NCBI RefSeq assembly: GCF_027492755.1
Contig: NZ_JAPUED010000233.1
Span: forward strand, 1-36,577
Length of the DNA stretch: 36,577 nt
Direction of reading: 5' to 3'
From: Micropruina sp.
GTDB taxonomy: Bacteria; Actinomycetota; Actinomycetes; Propionibacteriales; Propionibacteriaceae
Translations under genes and position numbers: made by a program
The notes under the pieces: generated by a model
Seen by the model: the letters and a program-made list of their open reading frames with translations, nothing else
Told to the model about the DNA's origin: nothing
The model's database searches: none
Shown: positions 1 through 24,843 of the stretch, one piece after another
Layout of the letters: each line of letters starts with the position of its first letter
Numbering within the stretch: the first letter of the stretch is position 1

Positions 1-316
1 GTCGAGCTTGTCGAGACCCCTTCCGGGCGCCGTTGGTCGAGCTTGTCGAGACCTCTTTCGGACATCGTTGGTCGAGCTTGTCGAGACCTCGGCATATGAC
101 GGATCCGACCAGCTCAGTCCCTGGTGATCGAGACTCCGTCGTCCGGGCTCCGACCCGGGATCTCGGCACACTGCAACGGTTTCGCGTTCAGAACCTCACG
201 CCCACCAGCAACGCACTGTGGGGATCCCAACACGGGCCAGATGCCCATCGAGGGTCTCGACAGGCTCGACCAGCGGTGGCTCAGCCCTGGGTTGAGAAGG
301 AACTCGGCCGGTGTGC
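1..316. repeat. Tandem and dispersed GGTCGAGCTTGTCGAGACC repeats downstream of lysS
   Basis: No gene is seen here. The 19-base imperfect palindrome GGTCGAGCTTGTCGAGACC occurs at 1-17 (first bases cut off), 35-53 and 70-88 with a 35-bp period, so the flanks (ttcgg..catcgtt) are duplicated too. An inverted variant lies at 253-271. Positions 280-297 also resemble the last codons and stop of lysS (315-334), suggesting a local duplication of the lysS 3' end. The stretch lies downstream of lysS, which reads leftward, so it may be transcribed as its 3' UTR. Confidence 0.8.
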
Positions 317-3276: not shown

Positions 3277-5007
3277 TCATTTGGGGTCTCGGCGGGCTCG
3301 ACCAACGGCTGTTGAGCGGCTGTCGGACGCGGCTTCCACATGGACCTCGGCGCGATGGTCGGACGTCCGGGTGAACTGCCAGTGGACGGTCGGGTCGAGC
3401 GCGTCCAGCAGAGTCCGGTCGTGGGTGACGATCAGCAGGGTGCCGGTGTATTCGTCCAGGGCTTCCTGCAGCTGGTCGATGGCGGCGGCATCCAGGTGGT
3501 TGGTGGGTTCGTCGAGGACGACGACATTGACCGCCCGGCCCTGCAACAGCGCCAACGAAGCCCGGGTGCGTTCCCCCAGCGACAGGCTGGCGCAGGGCCG
3601 CGCGACATGTTCGGCACCAAGGCCGAACTTCGCCAGCAGGGTGCGGACGGCGCCGGCGTCGGTCTCGCCGAGGGCCGCGGCGACGGCGTCCAGCAGGGCA
3701 CGCTCGCCGGAGATCTCGTCGCGGGCCTGGCCGAGCGTGCCCAGCACCACCCGGGTGCCCCAGCTCACCCGGCCGGCCACGACCGCACGGTGACCGAGGA
3801 CCGCCTCGAGCAGCGTGGTCTTGCCCGAGCCGTTGTCACCGAGCAGCGCGATCCGCTCGCCGCGGACCACCTGGGCGCTGACCGGTCCGACGGTGAACTC
3901 ACCGGTGCGGGCCACCACCCGGTCGAGGGTGAGCACCACCTCCGACGACGGCGCAGCCTCGGTGATCGAGTAGCGCAGCTGCCATTCCTTGCGTGGCTGC
4001 TCCACCTCGTCCAGGCGTTCGACGGCGTCCCGGACGCGAGCCGCGCGCTGATCCATCCGACGCGCCCGGTCCTCCCGGTACTTCTTCTCCAGCTTCATGC
4101 CGGGCCCCAGCTTGGCCGCCTTGGCACGTCCGGCCCGGGCCCATTCGGTCTTGCGGCGGGCCTGTTCGACGAGCGCGTCGCGGGTGTCGGTGTAGCTGTC
4201 ATAGGCGGCTTCGGCCTGCTCACGCGCCCGTTGCTTGGCCGCGCGGTAGTCGCTCCAGCCGCCGGTGTAGTGGTTGACCTGCTGCTGGGTCTCGTCCAGC
4301 TCCAGCACCGAGGTGGCCACGGCGTCCAGGAACCCCCGATCGTGGGACGCGATCAGCACCGGTGCCCGCAGCGTCCGGACGAACTCGGTCAACGCCTCCA
4401 GGCCACGGGCGTCCAGGTTGTTCGTCGGCTCATCGAGCAGCAGCAGGTCGTAGCGGCTGACCAGGATGGACGCCAGTCCGGCCCGAGCAGCCTGGCCGCC
4501 GGACAGGCTGCCGAGTGGACGATCGAGGTCGGCGTCCAGGTCAAGACCGGCGAGCACCTCGGCCAAACGGGTATCCAGGTCGGCACCGCCCAATGCCAGC
4601 CAGGTGGCCAGGGCATGGTCGTAGCGTTCGGCGGGGTCCGGAGATTCCGGCGTGCGCCGGGATGACGCAGGGTGAGGGTCGGCCAACGCGGCCGCCGCGG
4701 ACTCGAAGGCGTCCTGGGCCGGCCCCACCCCGGTACGTCGCCGGGCGTAGTCGAGGATCGTCTCGTCCGGCGCGGGCGGCTCCTGGGGCAGGTAGCCCAG
4801 GGTGGCGTCCGGCGGAGCGAACCGGATCGTGCCGGCGTCCGGGGCATGCAGGCCGGCGACGATCCGCAGCAGCGTGGTCTTGCCGGCACCGTTGGGGCCG
4901 ACCAGCGCGGTGACGTCGCCGGGCGTCAGCCGCAGTTGCAGTCCGGAGAACAACGGACGCGCCCCGAACGATGCGGAGACGCCGGAAAGGAAGAGTGAAG
5001 CGGACAT
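3277..5007 (-). CDS. ABC-F family ATP-binding protein
   Basis: Soluble protein with two ATPase cassettes and no membrane domain, as in ABC-F factors that act on the ribosome as translation or antibiotic-protection factors. Cassette 1 has a Walker A (GPNGAGKTT), signature LSGGQ and Walker B LLLLDEPTNNLD. Cassette 2 has GDNGSGKTT, a divergent LSLGE signature and VVVLDEPTNHLD. A charged linker rich in Arg/Lys (about 270-340) separates them. MSASLFLSG at 5007 is preferred as start because GAGG lies upstream and the 23 residues before it look non-family; 576 residues. Two oddities: SSRRTPESPD in cassette 1 is encoded by a palindromic repeat (4640-4676), and the last residues RARRDPK come from another repeat (3285-3303). 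Whether it confers resistance cannot be told. Confidence 0.92.
   Translation of the reverse strand: MSASLFLSGVSASFGARPLFSGLQLRLTPGDVTALVGPNGAGKTTLLRIVAGLHAPDAGTIRFAPPDATLGYLPQEPPAPDETILDYARRRTGVGPAQDAFESAAAALADPHPASSRRTPESPDPAERYDHALATWLALGGADLDTRLAEVLAGLDLDADLDRPLGSLSGGQAARAGLASILVSRYDLLLLDEPTNNLDARGLEALTEFVRTLRAPVLIASHDRGFLDAVATSVLELDETQQQVNHYTGGWSDYRAAKQRAREQAEAAYDSYTDTRDALVEQARRKTEWARAGRAKAAKLGPGMKLEKKYREDRARRMDQRAARVRDAVERLDEVEQPRKEWQLRYSITEAAPSSEVVLTLDRVVARTGEFTVGPVSAQVVRGERIALLGDNGSGKTTLLEAVLGHRAVVAGRVSWGTRVVLGTLGQARDEISGERALLDAVAAALGETDAGAVRTLLAKFGLGAEHVARPCASLSLGERTRASLALLQGRAVNVVVLDEPTNHLDAAAIDQLQEALDEYTGTLLIVTHDRTLLDALDPTVHWQFTRTSDHRAEVHVEAASDSRSTAVGRARRDPK
3285..3303 (-). repeat. 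GGTCGAGC-family repeat at the 3' end of the ABC-F gene
   Basis: A degenerate copy of the 19-base dispersed palindrome (ggtctcggcgggctcgacc) supplies the final codons of the ABC-F gene just before its TGA stop. The original stop may have been displaced by the insertion. Confidence 0.6.
4640..4676. repeat. Intragenic palindromic repeat (second family)
   Basis: Read on the minus strand it contains GTCATCCCGGCGCACGCCGG followed by AATCTCC. Its core CCGGCG-CA-CGCCGG is palindromic. It resembles extragenic GTCATCCCGGCG-type palindromes found in many genomes, yet here it is in frame within cassette 1 of the ABC-F protein and encodes SSRRTPES. Confidence 0.65.
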
Positions 5008-14315: not shown

Positions 14316-15074
14316 ATGGCGGCGATCGATCTCAATGCCGATCTGGGCGAATCGTTCGGCGGGTGGCGGCTCGGCGACGACGACACGATGCTCGAGATCG
14401 TGACCAGCGCCAATGTGGCGTGCGGGTTCCATGCCGGCGATCCACTCACCCTGGAACGCACCTGCGCGCTGGCAGCGAGCCGCGGCGTCCGGATCGGCGC
14501 CCAGGTCTCCTACCGCGATCTGGCCGGCTTCGGACGTCGCTTCCTGGACTGTTCCGAGGCCGAGCTGCGGGCCGATGTGCTCTATCAGCTGGGCGCATTG
14601 CAGGCCATGTGCGTCGCCGCGGGCACCTCGCTGGCCTACCTGAAGCCGCACGGCGCCCTGTACAACACGGTGGTTCGTCACGAGGTCCATGCCCGCGCCG
14701 TGGTGAGTGCCGTTATCTCCTTCGACCCCGGCCTGCCGATCCTCGGGCTGCCCGGCGGCGTGCTGCTCGAGCAGGCCCACGCAGCCGGCCTGCGCACGGT
14801 GACCGAGGCGTTTGTCGATCGTGGCTACACCCCCGAGGGCACGCTGGTGCCGCGCGGCCAGCCGGGCGATCTGATCGACGATCCGGACGTCGCCGCAGCC
14901 CGGGTGATCCGACTGGTCAGCGACAAAGTAGTCACAGCCGTGGACGGCACCGAGGTGCCGATGTCGGCCGAATCCCTGTGCACCCACGGCGATTCGCCGG
15001 GCGCCGTGGCCATGGCACGGCACGTTCGGCGGGCGCTGGAGACCGCCGGCGTCGAGGTGCGGGCCTTCACCTGA
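14316..15074 (+). CDS. pxpA: 5-oxoprolinase subunit PxpA (LamB/YcsF family)
   Basis: Subunit of the ATP-dependent 5-oxoprolinase that opens the damage product 5-oxoproline (pyroglutamate) to glutamate. The 252-residue protein has the standard length and motifs: IDLNADLGESFG at the start, SANVACGFHAGDP, the KPHGALYN segment and the late CTHGDSPGAV. Its stop overlaps the start of the PxpB-PxpC gene by one base (TGATG at 15072-15076), so the two are coupled. The ATG at 14316 is favoured by the conserved N-terminus. Confidence 0.95.
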   Translation: MAAIDLNADLGESFGGWRLGDDDTMLEIVTSANVACGFHAGDPLTLERTCALAASRGVRIGAQVSYRDLAGFGRRFLDCSEAELRADVLYQLGALQAMCVAAGTSLAYLKPHGALYNTVVRHEVHARAVVSAVISFDPGLPILGLPGGVLLEQAHAAGLRTVTEAFVDRGYTPEGTLVPRGQPGDLIDDPDVAAARVIRLVSDKVVTAVDGTEVPMSAESLCTHGDSPGAVAMARHVRRALETAGVEVRAFT

Positions 15075-16645
15075 TGGACGGCCGGCTGCTGCCCTGCGGT
15101 GAACGCGCGCTGCTGATCGAGGTTGACAGCCTGGACGCCGTCCTGGCACTGAGAACGGCGCTGGCATCGGTGGCCGGTCACGGCGCATTCACTCCAGTTC
15201 GTGATGTGGTGCCGGCCGCCACCACCGTGCTGCTCAGCGTCGACGACCCGGACGCCCTGGCTGGTGTTCGTGACGCGGCAGCAGCGCTGCTTCCCGGACT
15301 GGATATCGCCACCGGCCCGACTGACCCGGACGAGGCGGTCGAGATCAGTGTCCGCTATGACGGTGAGGATCTGGCCGAGGTCGCCCGAATCACCGGACTG
15401 ACGCCGGCGGAGGTGATAGCCGCGCACACCGGCCGTGATTGGACGGTCGCCTTCGGTGGGTTCGCGCCTGGCTTCGCCTATCTGGTCGGCGGCGATGAAC
15501 GGCTGCAGGTGCCGCGGCGTGCCGTGCCGCGCACCCGGGTGCCGCCCGGCGCCGTCGGCCTGGCGGGCCCGTTCAGCGGCATCTACCCGCGCGCCTCCCC
15601 CGGCGGCTGGCAGCTGATCGGCAGCACCGAGGTCACGCTGTGGGACGCCGAGCGCACCCCGCCCGCGCTGCTGCAACCGGGCGGCCGGGTACGGTTCCGC
15701 GCCGTCGACGAGAAGCGCCCCGAGAGGGGTCTCGACAAGCTCGACCACCAGGTGGCCGGCCCCGACCGGCGGAGTGCGTTGACTGTGCTCACCACCGGGC
15801 CGCTCGCGCTGTTCGTCGACGAGGGACGGCCGGGTTATGCGGCGGTGGGTGTGTCGCCGTCCGGGGCTGCCGACCGGACGGCGTATCGGCTCGCCAACCG
15901 GCTGGTCGGCAACCCCTCGGGCGCGGCAGCCCTGGAGATCACCCTGGGCGGGCTGGCGCTGCGCGCGGCGTCCAGTTGCCTGGTGGCAGTCACCGGCGCC
16001 GACTGCGCGGCCACCGTCGACGGACGTCCGGTCACCCACGCCGGACCCGTCTATCTCAGGCCGGGGCAGACGCTGCGATTGGGCGTCCCCTCCGCTGGGC
16101 TGCGCAGCTATCTCGCGGTCGCCGGCGGTTTCGAGGTGCCGCTGATCCTGGGTTCGGCAAGCAGCGACACGTTGTCCGGCCTCGGACCGCCGCGGCTGGA
16201 CCCGGGTGACCGGCTGGCGGTCGGCGCGGCGCTCACCCCGCTGCTGAGCGTCGACAGCGTGCCCCGCGCACAGCTCCCCGAGACCGAGCGACGGCTCGAC
16301 GTGCTTCCCGGCCCGCGATCCGACTGGCTGGCCGATGCCGCGGAACTGTTCGGACGGCGCTGGCGGCTCTCCGAGCACAGCGATCGGGTTGGCGTCCGCG
16401 TGTGGGGCGAGCCGCTGCGACGGCGTCTCGAGCTGGCCGGACGCGAACTGCCCAGCGAGCCGATGGTGCGGGGCAGCATCCAGGTGCCGCCCGACGGCCG
16501 GCCGGTGATCTTCGGAGCCGACCATCCGGTCACCGGCGGCTATCCCGTCGTCGGCGTGCTGACCGAAACCGCGAATGACGCCCTGGCCCAGGCCCGGCCG
16601 GGCGACTGGATCCGCTTCCGGCGCGTGGAGCAGCATCTCGGGTGA
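15074..16645 (+). CDS. Fused 5-oxoprolinase subunits PxpB-PxpC
   Basis: 523-residue protein combining two 5-oxoprolinase subunits that are separate in E. coli and B. subtilis (PxpB and PxpC). Residues 1-212 are PxpB (KipI-like), with FGGFAPGFAYLVG at 127 and VPRTRVPPGAVGLAG. Residues 236-523 are PxpC (KipA/biotin-dependent carboxylase-like), with VDEGRPGYAAVGVSPSGAADRTAYRLANRLVGN and a GDWIRFR end. Such fusions, often labelled oxoprolinase/urea amidolyase family, are known in actinobacteria. The linker residues 219-225 are encoded by a dispersed GGTCTCGACAAGCTCGACC repeat (15728-15746). The start ATG overlaps the pxpA stop. Together with PxpA it makes the full enzyme. Confidence 0.93.
   Translation: MDGRLLPCGERALLIEVDSLDAVLALRTALASVAGHGAFTPVRDVVPAATTVLLSVDDPDALAGVRDAAAALLPGLDIATGPTDPDEAVEISVRYDGEDLAEVARITGLTPAEVIAAHTGRDWTVAFGGFAPGFAYLVGGDERLQVPRRAVPRTRVPPGAVGLAGPFSGIYPRASPGGWQLIGSTEVTLWDAERTPPALLQPGGRVRFRAVDEKRPERGLDKLDHQVAGPDRRSALTVLTTGPLALFVDEGRPGYAAVGVSPSGAADRTAYRLANRLVGNPSGAAALEITLGGLALRAASSCLVAVTGADCAATVDGRPVTHAGPVYLRPGQTLRLGVPSAGLRSYLAVAGGFEVPLILGSASSDTLSGLGPPRLDPGDRLAVGAALTPLLSVDSVPRAQLPETERRLDVLPGPRSDWLADAAELFGRRWRLSEHSDRVGVRVWGEPLRRRLELAGRELPSEPMVRGSIQVPPDGRPVIFGADHPVTGGYPVVGVLTETANDALAQARPGDWIRFRRVEQHLG
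15728..15746. repeat. Dispersed palindrome in the PxpB-PxpC linker
   Basis: GGTCTCGACAAGCTCGACC is an exact-orientation member of the 19-base repeat family. It is read in frame as GLDKLDH between the PxpB and PxpC domains. Confidence 0.8.
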
Positions 16646-19891: not shown

Positions 19892-19948
19892 CCTTGGCGT
19901 GCGGGGTCCGCGGAACACCGGCTACCGGGGATGCGCAAGGATGGCCGG

Positions 19949-21709
19949 GTGAGCACGACGTCCGGCAGCACCGATGCCCGCCGCCGCGGCCCGCTCGATC
20001 CACGATTGTTGCGGCGCGGACGCGACACGCTGCGATACCTGGTCGCCGGGGTCGCGGTCGGGTCGGCGACCGCGGTGCTCACCATCGTCCAGGCCTGGGC
20101 ATTGTCGTCGGCGCTGGGGGACATCTTCGAGACCCACGCGCTCGGCGTCCTGACCTGGGCGGTGCCGATGCTGGTGGGGGTGTTCGCCGGGAAGGCGATC
20201 CTGGCCTGGCTCAACCAGTGGCTCGCCCAACGCGCGTCGGCCGCGGTCAAATCCCGGTTGCGCCGCGACGTCCTCGCCGCCCGGCTGGTCGATCCGGTGC
20301 GGCCCGAGCCGTCCACCGCGTCGCTGGTGACGCTGCTCACCCAGGGCCTGGACGCCCTCGACGGCTACTACTCCAAGTACCTGCCGCAGTTGCTGCTGGC
20401 GGTCACCGTGCCGCTGATCATCGGCGTCGCGATCCTCACCTCCGACCTCACCTCGGCGATCATCGTGGCGGTCACCCTGCCGCTGATCCCGCTCTTCATG
20501 GCGCTGGTCGGCTGGACCACCGAGGCCCGGACGCGGAAGCGCTGGCGGGTGCAGACCCGGCTCGCCGGGCACTTCGCGGATCTGGTCGCCGGACTGCCCA
20601 CCCTGCAGGTGTTCGGACGCGCCCGCGCCCAGGCCGAAGGGCTGCGCCGCTCGGAGGCCGCCCACCGCCGGGAGACCATGGGGACGCTGCGGATCTCGTT
20701 CCTGTCCGCCCTGGTGCTGGAACTGCTGGCCAGCCTCTCGGTGGCGATCGTCGCCGTCGCGATCGGCTTTCGAGTGGTGTTCCACGAGGTGGATCTGACC
20801 GCCGCCTTCTTCGTGCTGATCCTGGCCCCCGAGGTCTACCTGCCGGTGCGCCAGGTCGGTGTCCACTACCACGACGCCGCGGACGGGATGGCTGCCGCCG
20901 AATCGGCGTTCGCCCTGATCGAGGGCGCCGAGCAGCCCTCGGACGCCTCCGCGGACGGTGCTTTCGACAAGCTCGAGCAACGTCCCTCCGCCACACCCTC
21001 GGCAGTCGAGCCTGTCGTGCCCACGCTGGCCACCGCCTCGTCGGTCGAACTTGTCGAGACCGCTGTGATCGACCGGCCCCAGCCACCCACCCCGCTGTTC
21101 CAGATCACCGGCCTGACCGTCCACTACCCGGGCGCTGCCGCACCCGTCCTGAACGACGTCGACCTGACCGCACGCACCGGCGAACTCACCGTGATCACCG
21201 GCACCTCGGGCACCGGCAAGACCACCCTGCTGTACGCGCTGATGGGTTTCGTCAGCCCCGCCTCAGGACGCTTCCTGCTCGACGGCCGCCCCGCCGACGC
21301 ACCCACCCGCCGGGCCCGGATCGCCTGGGTCGGGCAGAACCCGGGCATGGTCAACGGGACGATCGCCGACAACATCCGGTTGGGCGCTCCGGACGCCACG
21401 GACGACGCCGTCCGAGACTCGCTGCGGCTCGCCGGCGGCGACAGCCTCGACCCGGCTCGTGGTGTCGGCGACGACGGCGAGGGCCTGTCGGCGGGCGAAC
21501 GCCGCCGGGTGGCGGTGGCCCGCGCACTGCTGCGGGTCAGCCGCCGTCAGGCCGACGTCCTGGTGCTGGACGAACCGACCGCAGGCCTGGACGCGGCCAC
21601 CGAGACGGCCCTGCTGGACGCGGTGACCGGCCTCGGCACCACCACCATCGCCGTCTCACATCGGCCCGCCGTGATCGCCCGCGCCGACCACGTCCTGCAC
21701 CTCGGCTGA
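19949..21709 (+). CDS. cydD: CydD-type ABC exporter subunit for cytochrome bd assembly
   Basis: Half-transporter of 586 residues: six membrane helices (about 25-310) then an ATPase domain with Walker A GTSGTGKT (418-425), signature LSAGERRRVAVARALL, Walker B VLVLDEPTAGLD and switch SHRP. CydDC exports cysteine/glutathione and binds haem, and is needed to mature the bd oxidase; location after cydAB supports this assignment. GTG at 19949 is preferred because AAGGA lies 7 bases upstream; ATG 19931 would add six residues. The linker between domains (about 335-380, DKLEQ ... SVELVETAV) is expanded by copies of the dispersed palindrome. Its partner gene cydC follows after an inverted gene. Confidence 0.92.
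   Translation: MSTTSGSTDARRRGPLDPRLLRRGRDTLRYLVAGVAVGSATAVLTIVQAWALSSALGDIFETHALGVLTWAVPMLVGVFAGKAILAWLNQWLAQRASAAVKSRLRRDVLAARLVDPVRPEPSTASLVTLLTQGLDALDGYYSKYLPQLLLAVTVPLIIGVAILTSDLTSAIIVAVTLPLIPLFMALVGWTTEARTRKRWRVQTRLAGHFADLVAGLPTLQVFGRARAQAEGLRRSEAAHRRETMGTLRISFLSALVLELLASLSVAIVAVAIGFRVVFHEVDLTAAFFVLILAPEVYLPVRQVGVHYHDAADGMAAAESAFALIEGAEQPSDASADGAFDKLEQRPSATPSAVEPVVPTLATASSVELVETAVIDRPQPPTPLFQITGLTVHYPGAAAPVLNDVDLTARTGELTVITGTSGTGKTTLLYALMGFVSPASGRFLLDGRPADAPTRRARIAWVGQNPGMVNGTIADNIRLGAPDATDDAVRDSLRLAGGDSLDPARGVGDDGEGLSAGERRRVAVARALLRVSRRQADVLVLDEPTAGLDAATETALLDAVTGLGTTTIAVSHRPAVIARADHVLHLG
20963..21061. repeat. Three dispersed palindromes inside the cydD linker
   Basis: TTCGACAAGCTCGAGCAAC at 20963-20981, a degenerate GTCGAGCCTGTCG at 21005-21017 and GGTCGAACTTGTCGAGACC at 21043-21061 are all in coding sequence, in both orientations, between the membrane and ATPase domains of CydD. 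Confidence 0.7.
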
Positions 21710-21783
21710 CTCGCGATCCGCACTCGGCCCAACCGCTCGACTCCCGGGCACTGGGCGCCGCCGAGGGAAGCTCGACTCTCGTT

Positions 21784-21841
21784 GGTCGAGCTTGTCGAGA
21801 CCTGGGTTCGGGCGCTGCGAAGGGTTTCGACAAGCTCAACC
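21784..21841. repeat. Inverted pair of the 19-base dispersed palindrome
   Basis: GGTCGAGCTTGTCGAGACC (21784-21802) and GGTTTCGACAAGCTCAACC (21823-21841) face each other between the convergent cydD and the membrane-protein gene. They could form a long hairpin that ends both transcripts. Confidence 0.7.
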
Positions 21842-21887
21842 GGCGGTGGTCACGGTAGTCAGCGTTCCAGTACGAGCTGAGCAGAAC

Positions 21888-23090
21888 TCAGGTGCGGGCC
21901 CACCAGTCGATCATCGTCTTGGCGGTGTCGCCGTCCGAGACCGCCTCGATGAAGAACCGCTGCTTGCTGAAGGTCCAGGCGACGCGGCCGGTGCCGTCCT
22001 TCGCAGCCGCGGAGCCGAGCTTGCCTTCGATCTTCTTCGGGGTGTCGGTGTACCACCAGTTGGTGTGGGCCGGGGGCTTCTTCCAGTTCGATCCGATCTC
22101 GCCTTTGGGGATGCCCGCGCGGCGGAAGAAGTCGTCCATCAGTTCGGTCAGGTCCTTGGAGTCGACCGCCGAACGCAGGGCGACGGTGGCCTCGCCGTGG
22201 AGCTTGCCGCGGGCGTTGGCCGTGCAGAGGAACGCCTGCCGCGAAATGTCGCTGCTGTCCGGCCGGCAGGTGTCGATCTGGACATAACTGCGCAGGTACA
22301 CCGCCCACTCGCATTGCAGCTTGGTGAGTTCCGCGCTGCACTGTGCGGCCGCGCTCGACGAGGGCTGCAGGCTCGGGCCTGTCGAGGACGGCGGCTCGGT
22401 GGACGGCGCACTGGAGGGTCCGAGGATCGGCGGCGTCGGGTCGACCGAGGACCGGGTAGGGGCGGGGGCGCTGGGCGACGGCGTCGCGGTGCCGGTCGGA
22501 CGCAGGAAGAAGAACCAGCCGACCAGTCCGATCACCACCACCACGGCGACGATGCCGAGGATCATCGGCACCGGGTTCCGGCCGCGACCACCACCCGGGG
22601 GCGGAGCACCGAAGCCGCCGCTGGGTGGCGCGCCGAAGTTGCCGCCGGGCGGGCCGTACTGTCCCGGCGGACCGTAGCCCGGGCCGCCGGTCCCGGCGCC
22701 GGGCGCACCCGTCCCGTAGGCACCCGCCGCTCCGTACTGGCCGGACGGGCCGTACCCCCCAGGACCGTTCTGTCCGGAACCCGGCCCGTACGGCGGCTGG
22801 CCGTACGGATTCTGGCCGTAGGGCTGCTCCTGGGCGGGCAACGGCTGGGTGGGCGCCGGTTGGCCCGGCCACGGCTGGCCCTGTGGAGACTGAGCCGACC
22901 ACGATTCGCCGGGCCATTGCTCTCCGGGCTGCTGGGCCGGCATCGGCTGGGTCGGCGGGTACTGCGGCGGGGTGGGCAGGTGGTGGGTCGGGTCGCTCTG
23001 CCAGTCGCCGGTCCCACCGGGAGGCGGTGGCCACTCGCCACCTGGCTGCTGCGGCGATCCACCGGTGGGCGGGTTCGGCGGCTGGCTCAT
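21888..23090 (-). CDS. Proline/glycine-rich single-pass membrane protein of unknown function
   Basis: 400 residues. Residues 1-172 are a low-complexity Pro/Gly/Gln/Tyr cytoplasmic stretch (repeats such as YGQPPYGPG). One membrane helix follows (about 176-196, MILGIVAVVVVIGLVGWFFFL), then a Ser/Pro/Thr linker (197-250) and an exported domain of about 145 residues with paired cysteines (C in AAQCSAEL, LQCEWAV, DTCRPD, FLCTAN) and many aromatic residues (NWWYTD, WTFSKQRFF). Such architecture is common in actinobacteria; I do not recognise the exported domain. ATG at 23090 has GAGGGA upstream; an in-frame start 10 codons earlier is less likely. It splits cydD from cydC. Confidence 0.8.
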   Translation of the reverse strand: MSQPPNPPTGGSPQQPGGEWPPPPGGTGDWQSDPTHHLPTPPQYPPTQPMPAQQPGEQWPGESWSAQSPQGQPWPGQPAPTQPLPAQEQPYGQNPYGQPPYGPGSGQNGPGGYGPSGQYGAAGAYGTGAPGAGTGGPGYGPPGQYGPPGGNFGAPPSGGFGAPPPGGGRGRNPVPMILGIVAVVVVIGLVGWFFFLRPTGTATPSPSAPAPTRSSVDPTPPILGPSSAPSTEPPSSTGPSLQPSSSAAAQCSAELTKLQCEWAVYLRSYVQIDTCRPDSSDISRQAFLCTANARGKLHGEATVALRSAVDSKDLTELMDDFFRRAGIPKGEIGSNWKKPPAHTNWWYTDTPKKIEGKLGSAAAKDGTGRVAWTFSKQRFFIEAVSDGDTAKTMIDWWART

Positions 23091-23232: not shown

Positions 23233-24843
23233 ATGGCAGCGGCGCGGGCGGCGGACGGCTCCGGCTGGCGTTGGCTGATCCAACTCGTCCCAGGAGCGAC
23301 CGCCCGAACGGCCCTGGCCACGCTGCTGGCCTTCGGCGCCGCCGCCTCGTCGGTGGCCCTGATGGCGGTCTCGGCCTGGTTGTTGTCGCGTGCCGCGGAG
23401 CACCCGCCGGTGCTCTATCTGCAGGTGGCCGCCATCGGCGTCCGGGTGTTCGGCATCTCGCGCGGCCTGTTCCGCTATCTGGAGCGTCTGGTCGGCCACG
23501 ATGTGGCGCTGCGGTTGCAGAGCGCGCTGCGGCTCAGCACCTACAGTCACCTGGCCCGCACCACCCTGCTCGGCACCCGTCGCGGCGACCTGCTCACCCG
23601 GGTGATCGCCGATGTCGAAGCCGTGCAGGATCTGGTGGTCCGGTTCGTGGTGCCGGTGGTGTCGGCGTCGCTGGTGATCGTCGCCACCTCGGCGGTCTTC
23701 GCCGCCTTCTCGCCCGCCACGGCATTGGTGCTGCTCGGTTCCGCGCTGCTGGGCGGCGTCATCGTGCCGGGCCTGGCCCAGCGGGTTTCCCGTCGCTGGG
23801 ACGCCGCGGCCGCACCGGCCCGCGGAAAGCTGGCCGCCGGCGTCCATGAACTGGCCCGGACGGCGCCCGACCTGGTCGCCTACGGTGCCGCCGACGAACA
23901 GTTGCGCCGGGTGCTGGCCGCCGACGACGAGTTGCGCCGGCTGGACGAACGCGGCGCCTGGGTGCGCGGGGTGGCGTCCGGCTGCCAGGTGCTGGCCGCG
24001 GCGACCGCGGTGATCGCCGCGCTGCTGATCGGCGGGCCGCTGGTCGCCGACGGTACGCTGCCGCCGGTGATGCTGGCGGTGCTGGTGCTCACCCCGCTGG
24101 CGCTGCACGAGGTGCTCTCCACCTTGACCCAGGCCGCGCAGAGCGCCACCCGCGCGCTGGCCTCACTGGCCCGCGTCCGGCAGTTGCTGGACGCCGTCCC
24201 CGTCGGCGTCGGCGACCGCGACCTGCCCAGCACCGATGTCGCCCCCGGTCCGCTGGTGCTGGACGACCTGGCGATCGGCTGGCCGGGCGGCCCCGTGCTG
24301 CACGAGGGCCTCACCCTGCGGGTCGAGCCGGGCGAGAGCGTGGCGGTGGTGGGGCCGTCCGGCGCCGGGAAGACCACCTTGGCGGCCACCATCCTGGGCC
24401 TGATCCCGCCGAGGTCCGGGCGGGTCGAGGTGACCGGACGGGTCGGCTACCTGGCCCAGGACGCCCACATCTTCGCCACCTCGATCTCCGAGAACGTCCG
24501 GATCGGCAACCGGGACGCCGACGCCGCAGGCGTCCGGCGCGCGCTGGACCGGGCCGGGCTGCCGCTGGACGCCGCCCGCGTCGTCGGCGAGGAGGGGGCG
24601 ACGCTGTCCGGCGGCGAGGCGCGCCGGCTGGCACTGTCCCGGCTGTTCGCCGGCGAGTATCAGGCGGTGGTGCTGGACGAGCCGTCCGAACATCTGGACG
24701 CGGTGACCGCCGAGGCCCTGCTGGACGACATCTTCGCCTCGATGGCCGGGGTGCCGCTGCTGGTCATCACCCACGATCCGGACGTCGTCGCACGCTGCCA
24801 CCGCACCGTCGAACTCGCGGTTGGCGCCGTCCCCTATCGTTGA
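23233..24843 (+). CDS. cydC: CydC-type ABC exporter subunit for cytochrome bd assembly
   Basis: 536-residue half-transporter, partner of CydD. The membrane domain carries the CydC mark SVALMAVSAWLLSRAAEHPPVLYLQVAAIGVRVFGISRGLFRYLERLVGHD near residues 35-95. The ATPase domain has Walker A GPSGAGKTT, LSGGEARRLALSRLFAGEY and Walker B VVLDEPSEHLD with a His in ITHDP. ATG 23233 fits the family N-terminus. Separated from cydD by an opposite-strand gene, so it must be transcribed separately, consistent with its own -10 box. Confidence 0.92.
   Translation: MAAARAADGSGWRWLIQLVPGATARTALATLLAFGAAASSVALMAVSAWLLSRAAEHPPVLYLQVAAIGVRVFGISRGLFRYLERLVGHDVALRLQSALRLSTYSHLARTTLLGTRRGDLLTRVIADVEAVQDLVVRFVVPVVSASLVIVATSAVFAAFSPATALVLLGSALLGGVIVPGLAQRVSRRWDAAAAPARGKLAAGVHELARTAPDLVAYGAADEQLRRVLAADDELRRLDERGAWVRGVASGCQVLAAATAVIAALLIGGPLVADGTLPPVMLAVLVLTPLALHEVLSTLTQAAQSATRALASLARVRQLLDAVPVGVGDRDLPSTDVAPGPLVLDDLAIGWPGGPVLHEGLTLRVEPGESVAVVGPSGAGKTTLAATILGLIPPRSGRVEVTGRVGYLAQDAHIFATSISENVRIGNRDADAAGVRRALDRAGLPLDAARVVGEEGATLSGGEARRLALSRLFAGEYQAVVLDEPSEHLDAVTAEALLDDIFASMAGVPLLVITHDPDVVARCHRTVELAVGAVPYR

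Follow-up and report, generated by a model that had tools for sequence, protein, structure and literature searches.

Palindromes that recur between genes elsewhere in the window (the whole 36,577-nucleotide stretch of Micropruina DNA analyzed) are also found within cydD, in the segment that codes for the linker between the membrane and ATPase domains. This raises the question of whether a dispersed repeat has inserted in frame and been kept as protein sequence. The gene and its linker are as follows.

19931 to 21709, plus strand: cydD, encoding thiol reductant ABC exporter subunit CydD, 592 amino acids (TIGR02857, 555 bits against a cutoff of 435)
20927 to 21091, plus strand: CydD TMD-NBD linker, amino acids 333 to 387, predicted to be unstructured

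Pfam placed the ABC_membrane domain of this CydD at residues 46 to 293 and the ABC_tran domain at residues 407 to 551. In the AlphaFold2 model, pLDDT fell below 50 at residues 337 to 385, and secondary structure was absent over residues 333 to 387. Counted in alignment residues within one fixed interval, the linker spans 76 residues here and 79 in the orthologue from the sister assembly G004 (79% identity to this CydD), compared with 45 in G003, 40 in G001, and 37 in G005; elsewhere in the family it is variable and mostly 33 to 60 residues long. The long linker is thus not common to all orthologues (37 to 45 residues in three congeners versus 76), as an insertion would predict. However, the proposal that it was built wholly from repeats fails, since a variable linker is present throughout the CydD family. 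The CydD of another relative (G062, locus L051) carries an unrelated low-complexity or tandem-repeat expansion at the same linker. A minus-strand gene (21888 to 22841) stands between cydD and cydC (23233 to 24843); G003 and G005 also have an interval between cydD and cydC, of about 1.3 to 1.4 kb, and in G002 the two genes are adjacent.

The sequence-only reading had described the repeat as a 19-mer, GGTCGAGCTTGTCGAGACC, and its matches were recovered between genes at 35 to 53, 70 to 88, 253 to 271 (minus strand), 21784 to 21802, and 21823 to 21841 (minus strand), as well as within cydD, between ABC_membrane and ABC_tran, at 21043 to 21061 and 20960 to 20978 (minus strand). Across the window there were 10 matches with ≤3 mismatches, against 0.01 expected. 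A genome scan for the 19-mer, which that reading had proposed, came out far above chance, with 695 matches (≤3 mismatches), whereas its reversal gave 11; when degenerate stem letters were allowed (GGTYGAGCTTGTCGARACC, ≤2 mismatches), the counts were 647 and 1. The 19-mer is correct as the palindromic body, but the full unit is longer. In an alignment of 189 copies with ≤1 mismatch, the upstream positions were conserved (C at −4, 0.94; G at −3, 0.98; C or T at −2; T at −1, 0.78), and nothing equally conserved was found in the downstream flank. Because the conserved letters outside the 19-mer lie mainly upstream, we define a REP-like unit of 24 bp, composed of a 5-nucleotide 5′ tag, CCGYY, and the palindrome GGTYGAGCTTGTCGARACC.

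This imperfect palindrome (GGTY-GA-G-CTTGT-C-GA-RACC) comprises a 4-bp stem (GGTY/RACC), G·A and A·G oppositions, and one G-C pair closing the loop CTTGT. Among 274 sampled copies, stem positions 3/15 were C-G in 169, T-A in 78, and other combinations in 27, and positions 1/17 were G-C in 232 and A-T in 20. The folding energy of a single hairpin was weak and no different from that of shuffled sequences; the covariation is the better evidence for the predicted stem. An Rfam search of the window gave no match. Copies tend to cluster: 208 of the 274 had a neighbor within 120 bp, and pairs were oriented with tags outward (HH) in 59 cases, with tags inward (TT) in 6, and in tandem in 58. Head-to-tail arrays with 31-bp and 45-bp periods were observed at G000:C54:9607-9718 and C32:7132-7240. 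Some assembly contigs end at REP copies (G000:C10:4-22, C22:1-19, and C29:36-54), which suggests that the assembly breaks at these repeats; the assemblies of the present genome and of G004 are both MAG-like and incomplete.

Three in-frame copies had been claimed in CydD. Two of them are genuine, as indicated by their mismatch counts and by a tag that extends past the palindrome:

20960 to 20983, minus strand: REP copy A, palindrome at 20960 to 20978 and tag at 20979 to 20983 (ACGTT), 2 mismatches to the degenerate consensus, CG of the tag intact
21038 to 21061, plus strand: REP copy C, tag at 21038 to 21042 (TCGTC) and palindrome at 21043 to 21061, 1 mismatch

Copy A, read on its opposite strand, codes for AFDKLEQ (CydD residues 343 to 349), and its outer stem change (G to C with C to G) is compensated. 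Copy C codes for SVELVET (residues 370 to 376). The claimed middle copy (VEPVV; 21004 to 21022, plus strand, AGTCGAGCCTGTCGTGCCC) was rejected: it departs from the degenerate consensus at 4 positions and lacks a CG-Y-Y tag. In the sampled genome, matches at exactly 4 mismatches were as frequent for the motif as for the reversed control (76 versus 76), whereas the counts were 42 versus 5 at 3 mismatches, 49 versus 0 at 2 mismatches, and 250 versus 1 at ≤2 mismatches. Similar residues also occur without a repeat in relatives (EPVVPVEPP in G003 and VEPPS in G004). Given this chance-level frequency and the repeat-free equivalents, CydD holds two copies, not three, and by sequence comparison the VEPVV segment is old, ancestral linker sequence.

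The two genuine copies differ in their distribution. Copy A is absent from the CydD linkers of G001, G003, G004, and G005, and its polarity is not fully certain because the sister G004 lacks it. G004 does carry a REP at the linker position of copy C (PVELVET, 1 mismatch), and copy C is absent from CydD of G001, G003, and G005. In a second G004 CydD, the corresponding peptide has decayed to PVGLVEA, indicating that the copy C peptide itself is not constrained. The CydD proteins of G002 and G005, both REP-rich genomes, contain no REP at all.

Other genes provide cleaner empty sites. In ArgC, only the present genome and G004 carry an insert of exactly 8 codons, GATCTCGACAAGCTCGATCAACGG, which corresponds to the tag CCGTT plus the palindrome (24 bp); nine other genomes show a gap at this site, mostly of 8 residues (7 to 8, and 9 in one). 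The Fpg of the present genome (L098:9159-10091) contains an HH dimer within a loop, and this dimer is absent from every other genome with an alignable site; the loop is short in G005 and in more distant relatives, somewhat longer but REP-free in G003, and enlarged in G001 (L253) by a different long expansion of low-complexity or tandem-repeat character. HemC, as part of a HemCD fusion, holds an HH dimer in which both copies match the consensus exactly; at this site G004 has an insertion without a recognizable REP, and the remaining genomes have no insertion. Further intragenic copies were found in the error-prone polymerase DnaE2 (L074:12842-16285), FabH, a GH92 hydrolase, and others. The peptides derived from intact reading frames include VELVET, GLDKLDQ, GRACRDP, VSTSST, FRQAQP, and SSLSRP. 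Translation of the element's variants met a stop in only one of the six frames, and there only for the T/A stem variant; every intragenic copy read in this sixth frame (GRACRD type) is a non-T variant.

The empty sites in CydD, Fpg, HemC, and ArgC bear out the proposal that in-frame palindromes became protein segments in a Rickettsia-like manner, and they lead us to infer insertion rather than repeated loss. They also support in-frame REP insertion as a general process across this genome, for which a focus on CydD alone was too narrow. A strict preference for domain borders was rejected, as the copies in Fpg, HemC, ArgC, and GH92 fall inside Pfam domains. Nor is the process new beyond Rickettsia, having been described earlier in other phyla (PMC3733652).

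Most copies are not in genes. Beyond cydD, the window contains these elements:

21779 to 21846: inverted HH REP dimer (tags outward), palindromes at 21784 to 21802 (plus) and 21823 to 21841 (minus), between the convergent cydD and the minus-strand gene at 21888 to 22841
30 to 88, plus strand: two tandem REPs, palindromes at 35 to 53 and 70 to 88, downstream of the minus-strand gene at 317 to 1822
253 to 276, minus strand: REP, palindrome at 253 to 271, downstream of the same gene
3285 to 3308, minus strand: REP with tag CCGTT, in the last codons (GRARRDPK-stop) of the ABC-F protein gene at 3277 to 4953

We surveyed 1.23 Mb (33%) of the present genome, on contigs partly chosen for listed hits, with gene calls from a simple hexamer gene finder (87% coding over the 1.23 Mb). 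Of the 274 copies in this sample, 239 were intergenic, 6 lay at the edges of genes, and 29 (~10%) were intragenic, the last spanning all six frames. Uniform placement would put 239 copies inside genes, so the observed 29 represent a roughly eightfold depletion; the intragenic set includes copies in RuvX (L088) that the gene finder scored as intragenic, although the true start probably lies downstream of them. REP density was 5.7 per kb in convergent gaps, 1.1 in tandem gaps, and 0.4 in divergent gaps. In 0.4 Mb sampled from the complete genome of G005, 48 copies were intergenic and 5 of 54 were intragenic. Given the strong genic depletion, either the majority of insertions into genes are lost or insertion favors intergenic DNA.

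Interdomain linkers of fusion proteins were another site at which repeats recurred. One such case lies in the window:

15728 to 15751, minus strand: REP in the linker of the PxpB-PxpC fusion (gene at 15074 to 16645), an exact palindrome whose tag position reads CTGGT and does not match

This REP codes for GLDKLDH at residue 218, between the Pfam domains CT_C_D (4 to 200) and CT_A_B (258 to 516). Among the relatives compared (L236, L237, L240, and L241), the same linker carries a 2-mismatch REP in G001 (minus strand) and in G005 (plus strand); in G003 it holds two inverted copies of GGGGACGGTTCC, from a second palindrome family, and in G004 (L241) it contains a tandem repeat. In the CysH-CysD fusion of the present genome (L063:10470-12293; PRK02090 plus TIGR02039), inverted REPs lie at the junction. 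Degraded REP pairs with 1 to 4 mismatches, in which not every copy has the tag, occupy the junction in G004, G001, and G005, the 4-mismatch member in G001 being at chance level by itself; at the G002 junction a codon search gave no result, and the sequence there seems frameshifted. The cysH and cysD genes are adjacent but unfused in G016, of a related genus, and lie on different contigs in G003. It is plausible that a REP dimer seeded the CysH-CysD fusion. The broader idea, that in Micropruina unrelated REP families repeatedly land in flexible interdomain linkers and that an intergenic REP dimer helped to build the CysH-CysD linker, we advance tentatively and consider somewhat doubtful. If true, a 24-bp, nearly stop-free element would be raw material for protein linkers.

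Among congeners, copy number ranged from 21 to 743 (the latter in G002) in an order that did not follow CydD similarity, which points to recent, lineage-specific gains or losses. These congeners offer natural before/after pairs for protein tolerance of inserts. The element is also abundant in scattered genomes outside Micropruina (G114, G096, G021, and G124): counts of 142 and 118 were obtained in a second family of the same order, 103 in a further genus of the same family, and 28, counting tagged copies, in yet another family of the class. No RAYT-type Y1 transposase (Y1_Tnp) was found in the present genome or in G002, and none of these REPs lay within about 1.5 kb of the RAYTs of G004, G005, G013, and G068. 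RAYTs of congeners are flanked instead by another palindrome, with repeats of the GGGGACGGTTCC / GGGGACGGTT type. A RAYT was therefore rejected as the mobilizing enzyme, being unlinked to the REP and uncorrelated with its copy number. RAYTs of Propionibacteriaceae more generally (L124 to L127 and L130; open frames of ~260 to 330 amino acids), flanked by GGGGACGGTTCC or AAAGGGGACTGTCCCCTTT, form a separate REP system.

Taken together, the element is very probably a high-copy Micropruina REP whose in-frame copies are tolerated in open reading frames, two of them in the disordered linker of CydD, where their probable role is linker lengthening only. The 24-bp unit would spread by a mechanism acting in trans, and most persisting copies lie downstream of genes. 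As 24 nucleotides equal eight codons, a single insertion keeps the reading frame, and a nearly stop-free copy that lands where a loop or linker tolerates it would not necessarily disrupt the gene and could persist as an in-frame peptide. The disordered TMD-NBD linker of CydD would have taken up two copies in this way, with a presumably near-neutral effect.

Three other explanations were weighed against this one. A GC-rich linker with many GTC, GAG, and ACC codons could mimic an intergenic repeat by composition, without any insertion, and the middle segment VEPVV, at a mismatch level where motif and control are equally frequent, fits that description. As an account of copies A and C, chance is refuted by the tag, which runs beyond the palindrome in both, and by the control counts at their mismatch levels (250 versus 1 at ≤2 mismatches); with clean empty sites in other genes as well, we regard this explanation of the locus as extremely unlikely. 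Slippage or gene conversion from repeats already in the linker, rather than a transposition-like gain of the 24-bp unit, draws on the unrelated short tandem repeats in relatives, LGDTARPGSDA in the G004 CydD linker and PPDSSRP in PxpBC linkers, which show that such linkers expand by slippage as well. Yet the inserted unit belongs to a dispersed genomic family with a tag and is not a local duplication, and the ArgC insert is one whole element at a site that lacks any nearby repeat from which slippage could start, making this route very unlikely as the source of the REP copies.

Functional recruitment would hold that the copies were selected, either as a regulatory or length-setting linker or as a DNA or RNA site (a terminator or a nucleoid protein site, for example) that is required within the gene. 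The sharing of copy C between the present genome and G004 is what one would expect on this account, and the density of copies in convergent gaps (5.7 per kb versus 0.4 in divergent gaps) suggests an effect at transcript ends. Against these points, the second G004 CydD has an eroded form of the peptide, congeners manage with linkers of 37 to 45 residues, REP-rich G002 and G005 have REP-free CydD, and genes as a whole are depleted of copies (29 observed versus 239 expected). We therefore consider recruitment improbable and favor tolerated in-frame insertion of the REP.

The Micropruina element resembles REPs in the broad sense: it is a 24-bp, high-copy, mostly intergenic unit with one unpaired tag at one end, and its placement agrees with that of REPs generally (PMC3733652). 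Like the GTAG-REP/RAYT system (REPINs), it combines a palindrome with a 5′ tag and forms inverted dimers, but it has neither a GTAG tag nor an association with a RAYT. There are also parallels with CGTC-REPs (PMC3733652), with which it shares a short palindrome, one CG-containing unpaired tag, a 5-nucleotide loop (4 to 5 nucleotides in CGTC-REPs), an excess of HH over TT pairs (59 versus 6 here), a location in convergent and unidirectional gene gaps, and the occurrence of intragenic copies. CGTC-REPs have no dedicated transposase (PMC3733652), and the Micropruina REP agrees with them in this respect. The differences lie in sequence and arrangement. The CGTC-REP tag is CGTC, or TGTC/CCTC (PMC3733652), whereas the Micropruina consensus is CGCT/CGTT, with a minority of CGTC tags (CCGTC in 18 and TCGTC in 8 of 274 copies); the Micropruina stem consists of 4 bp, tandem G·A, and 1 bp rather than 8 to 9 bp beginning with AT; its tail is CC rather than CCA; and head-to-tail pairs number 58, compared with the negligible numbers given by Di Nocera et al. 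2013 (PMC3733652). By tag and stem, the Micropruina REP is a sequence family separate from CGTC-REPs.

The comparison with the palindromic elements (RPEs) of Rickettsia rests on behavior, not sequence. In both cases palindromes lie in frame in many unrelated protein genes and are kept as coding sequence, with their peptides in open frames; the Micropruina inserts in ArgC, Fpg, HemC, and CydD leave the genes open and are absent from orthologues. RPE sites include DnaE and repair genes, and the Micropruina REP is found in DnaE2 and Fpg; in other phyla, too, REPs have been noted inside DNA repair genes, among them DnaE2 (PMC3733652). Intragenic CGTC and GTAG REPs behave in this way as well. RPE-4 and RPE-6 carry CGTC tags (PMC3733652, PMC10969869). 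Unlike RPEs, which were first reported at ~150 bp, the Micropruina element is 24 bp long, occurs in a different phylum, and is mostly intergenic. The main text of Di Nocera et al. 2013 makes no mention of Actinobacteria (PMC3733652), and our search of the open-access literature returned no description of this REP sequence and no relevant report on REPs in Actinobacteria or on Micropruina. What we describe is thus a known phenomenon with a sound example in another phylum, in a separate element family. The conversion of palindromes into protein is not limited to Rickettsia or Proteobacteria and extends to housekeeping enzymes of one actinobacterial genus, namely ArgC, HemC, Fpg, DnaE2, CydD, PxpBC, and CysHD.
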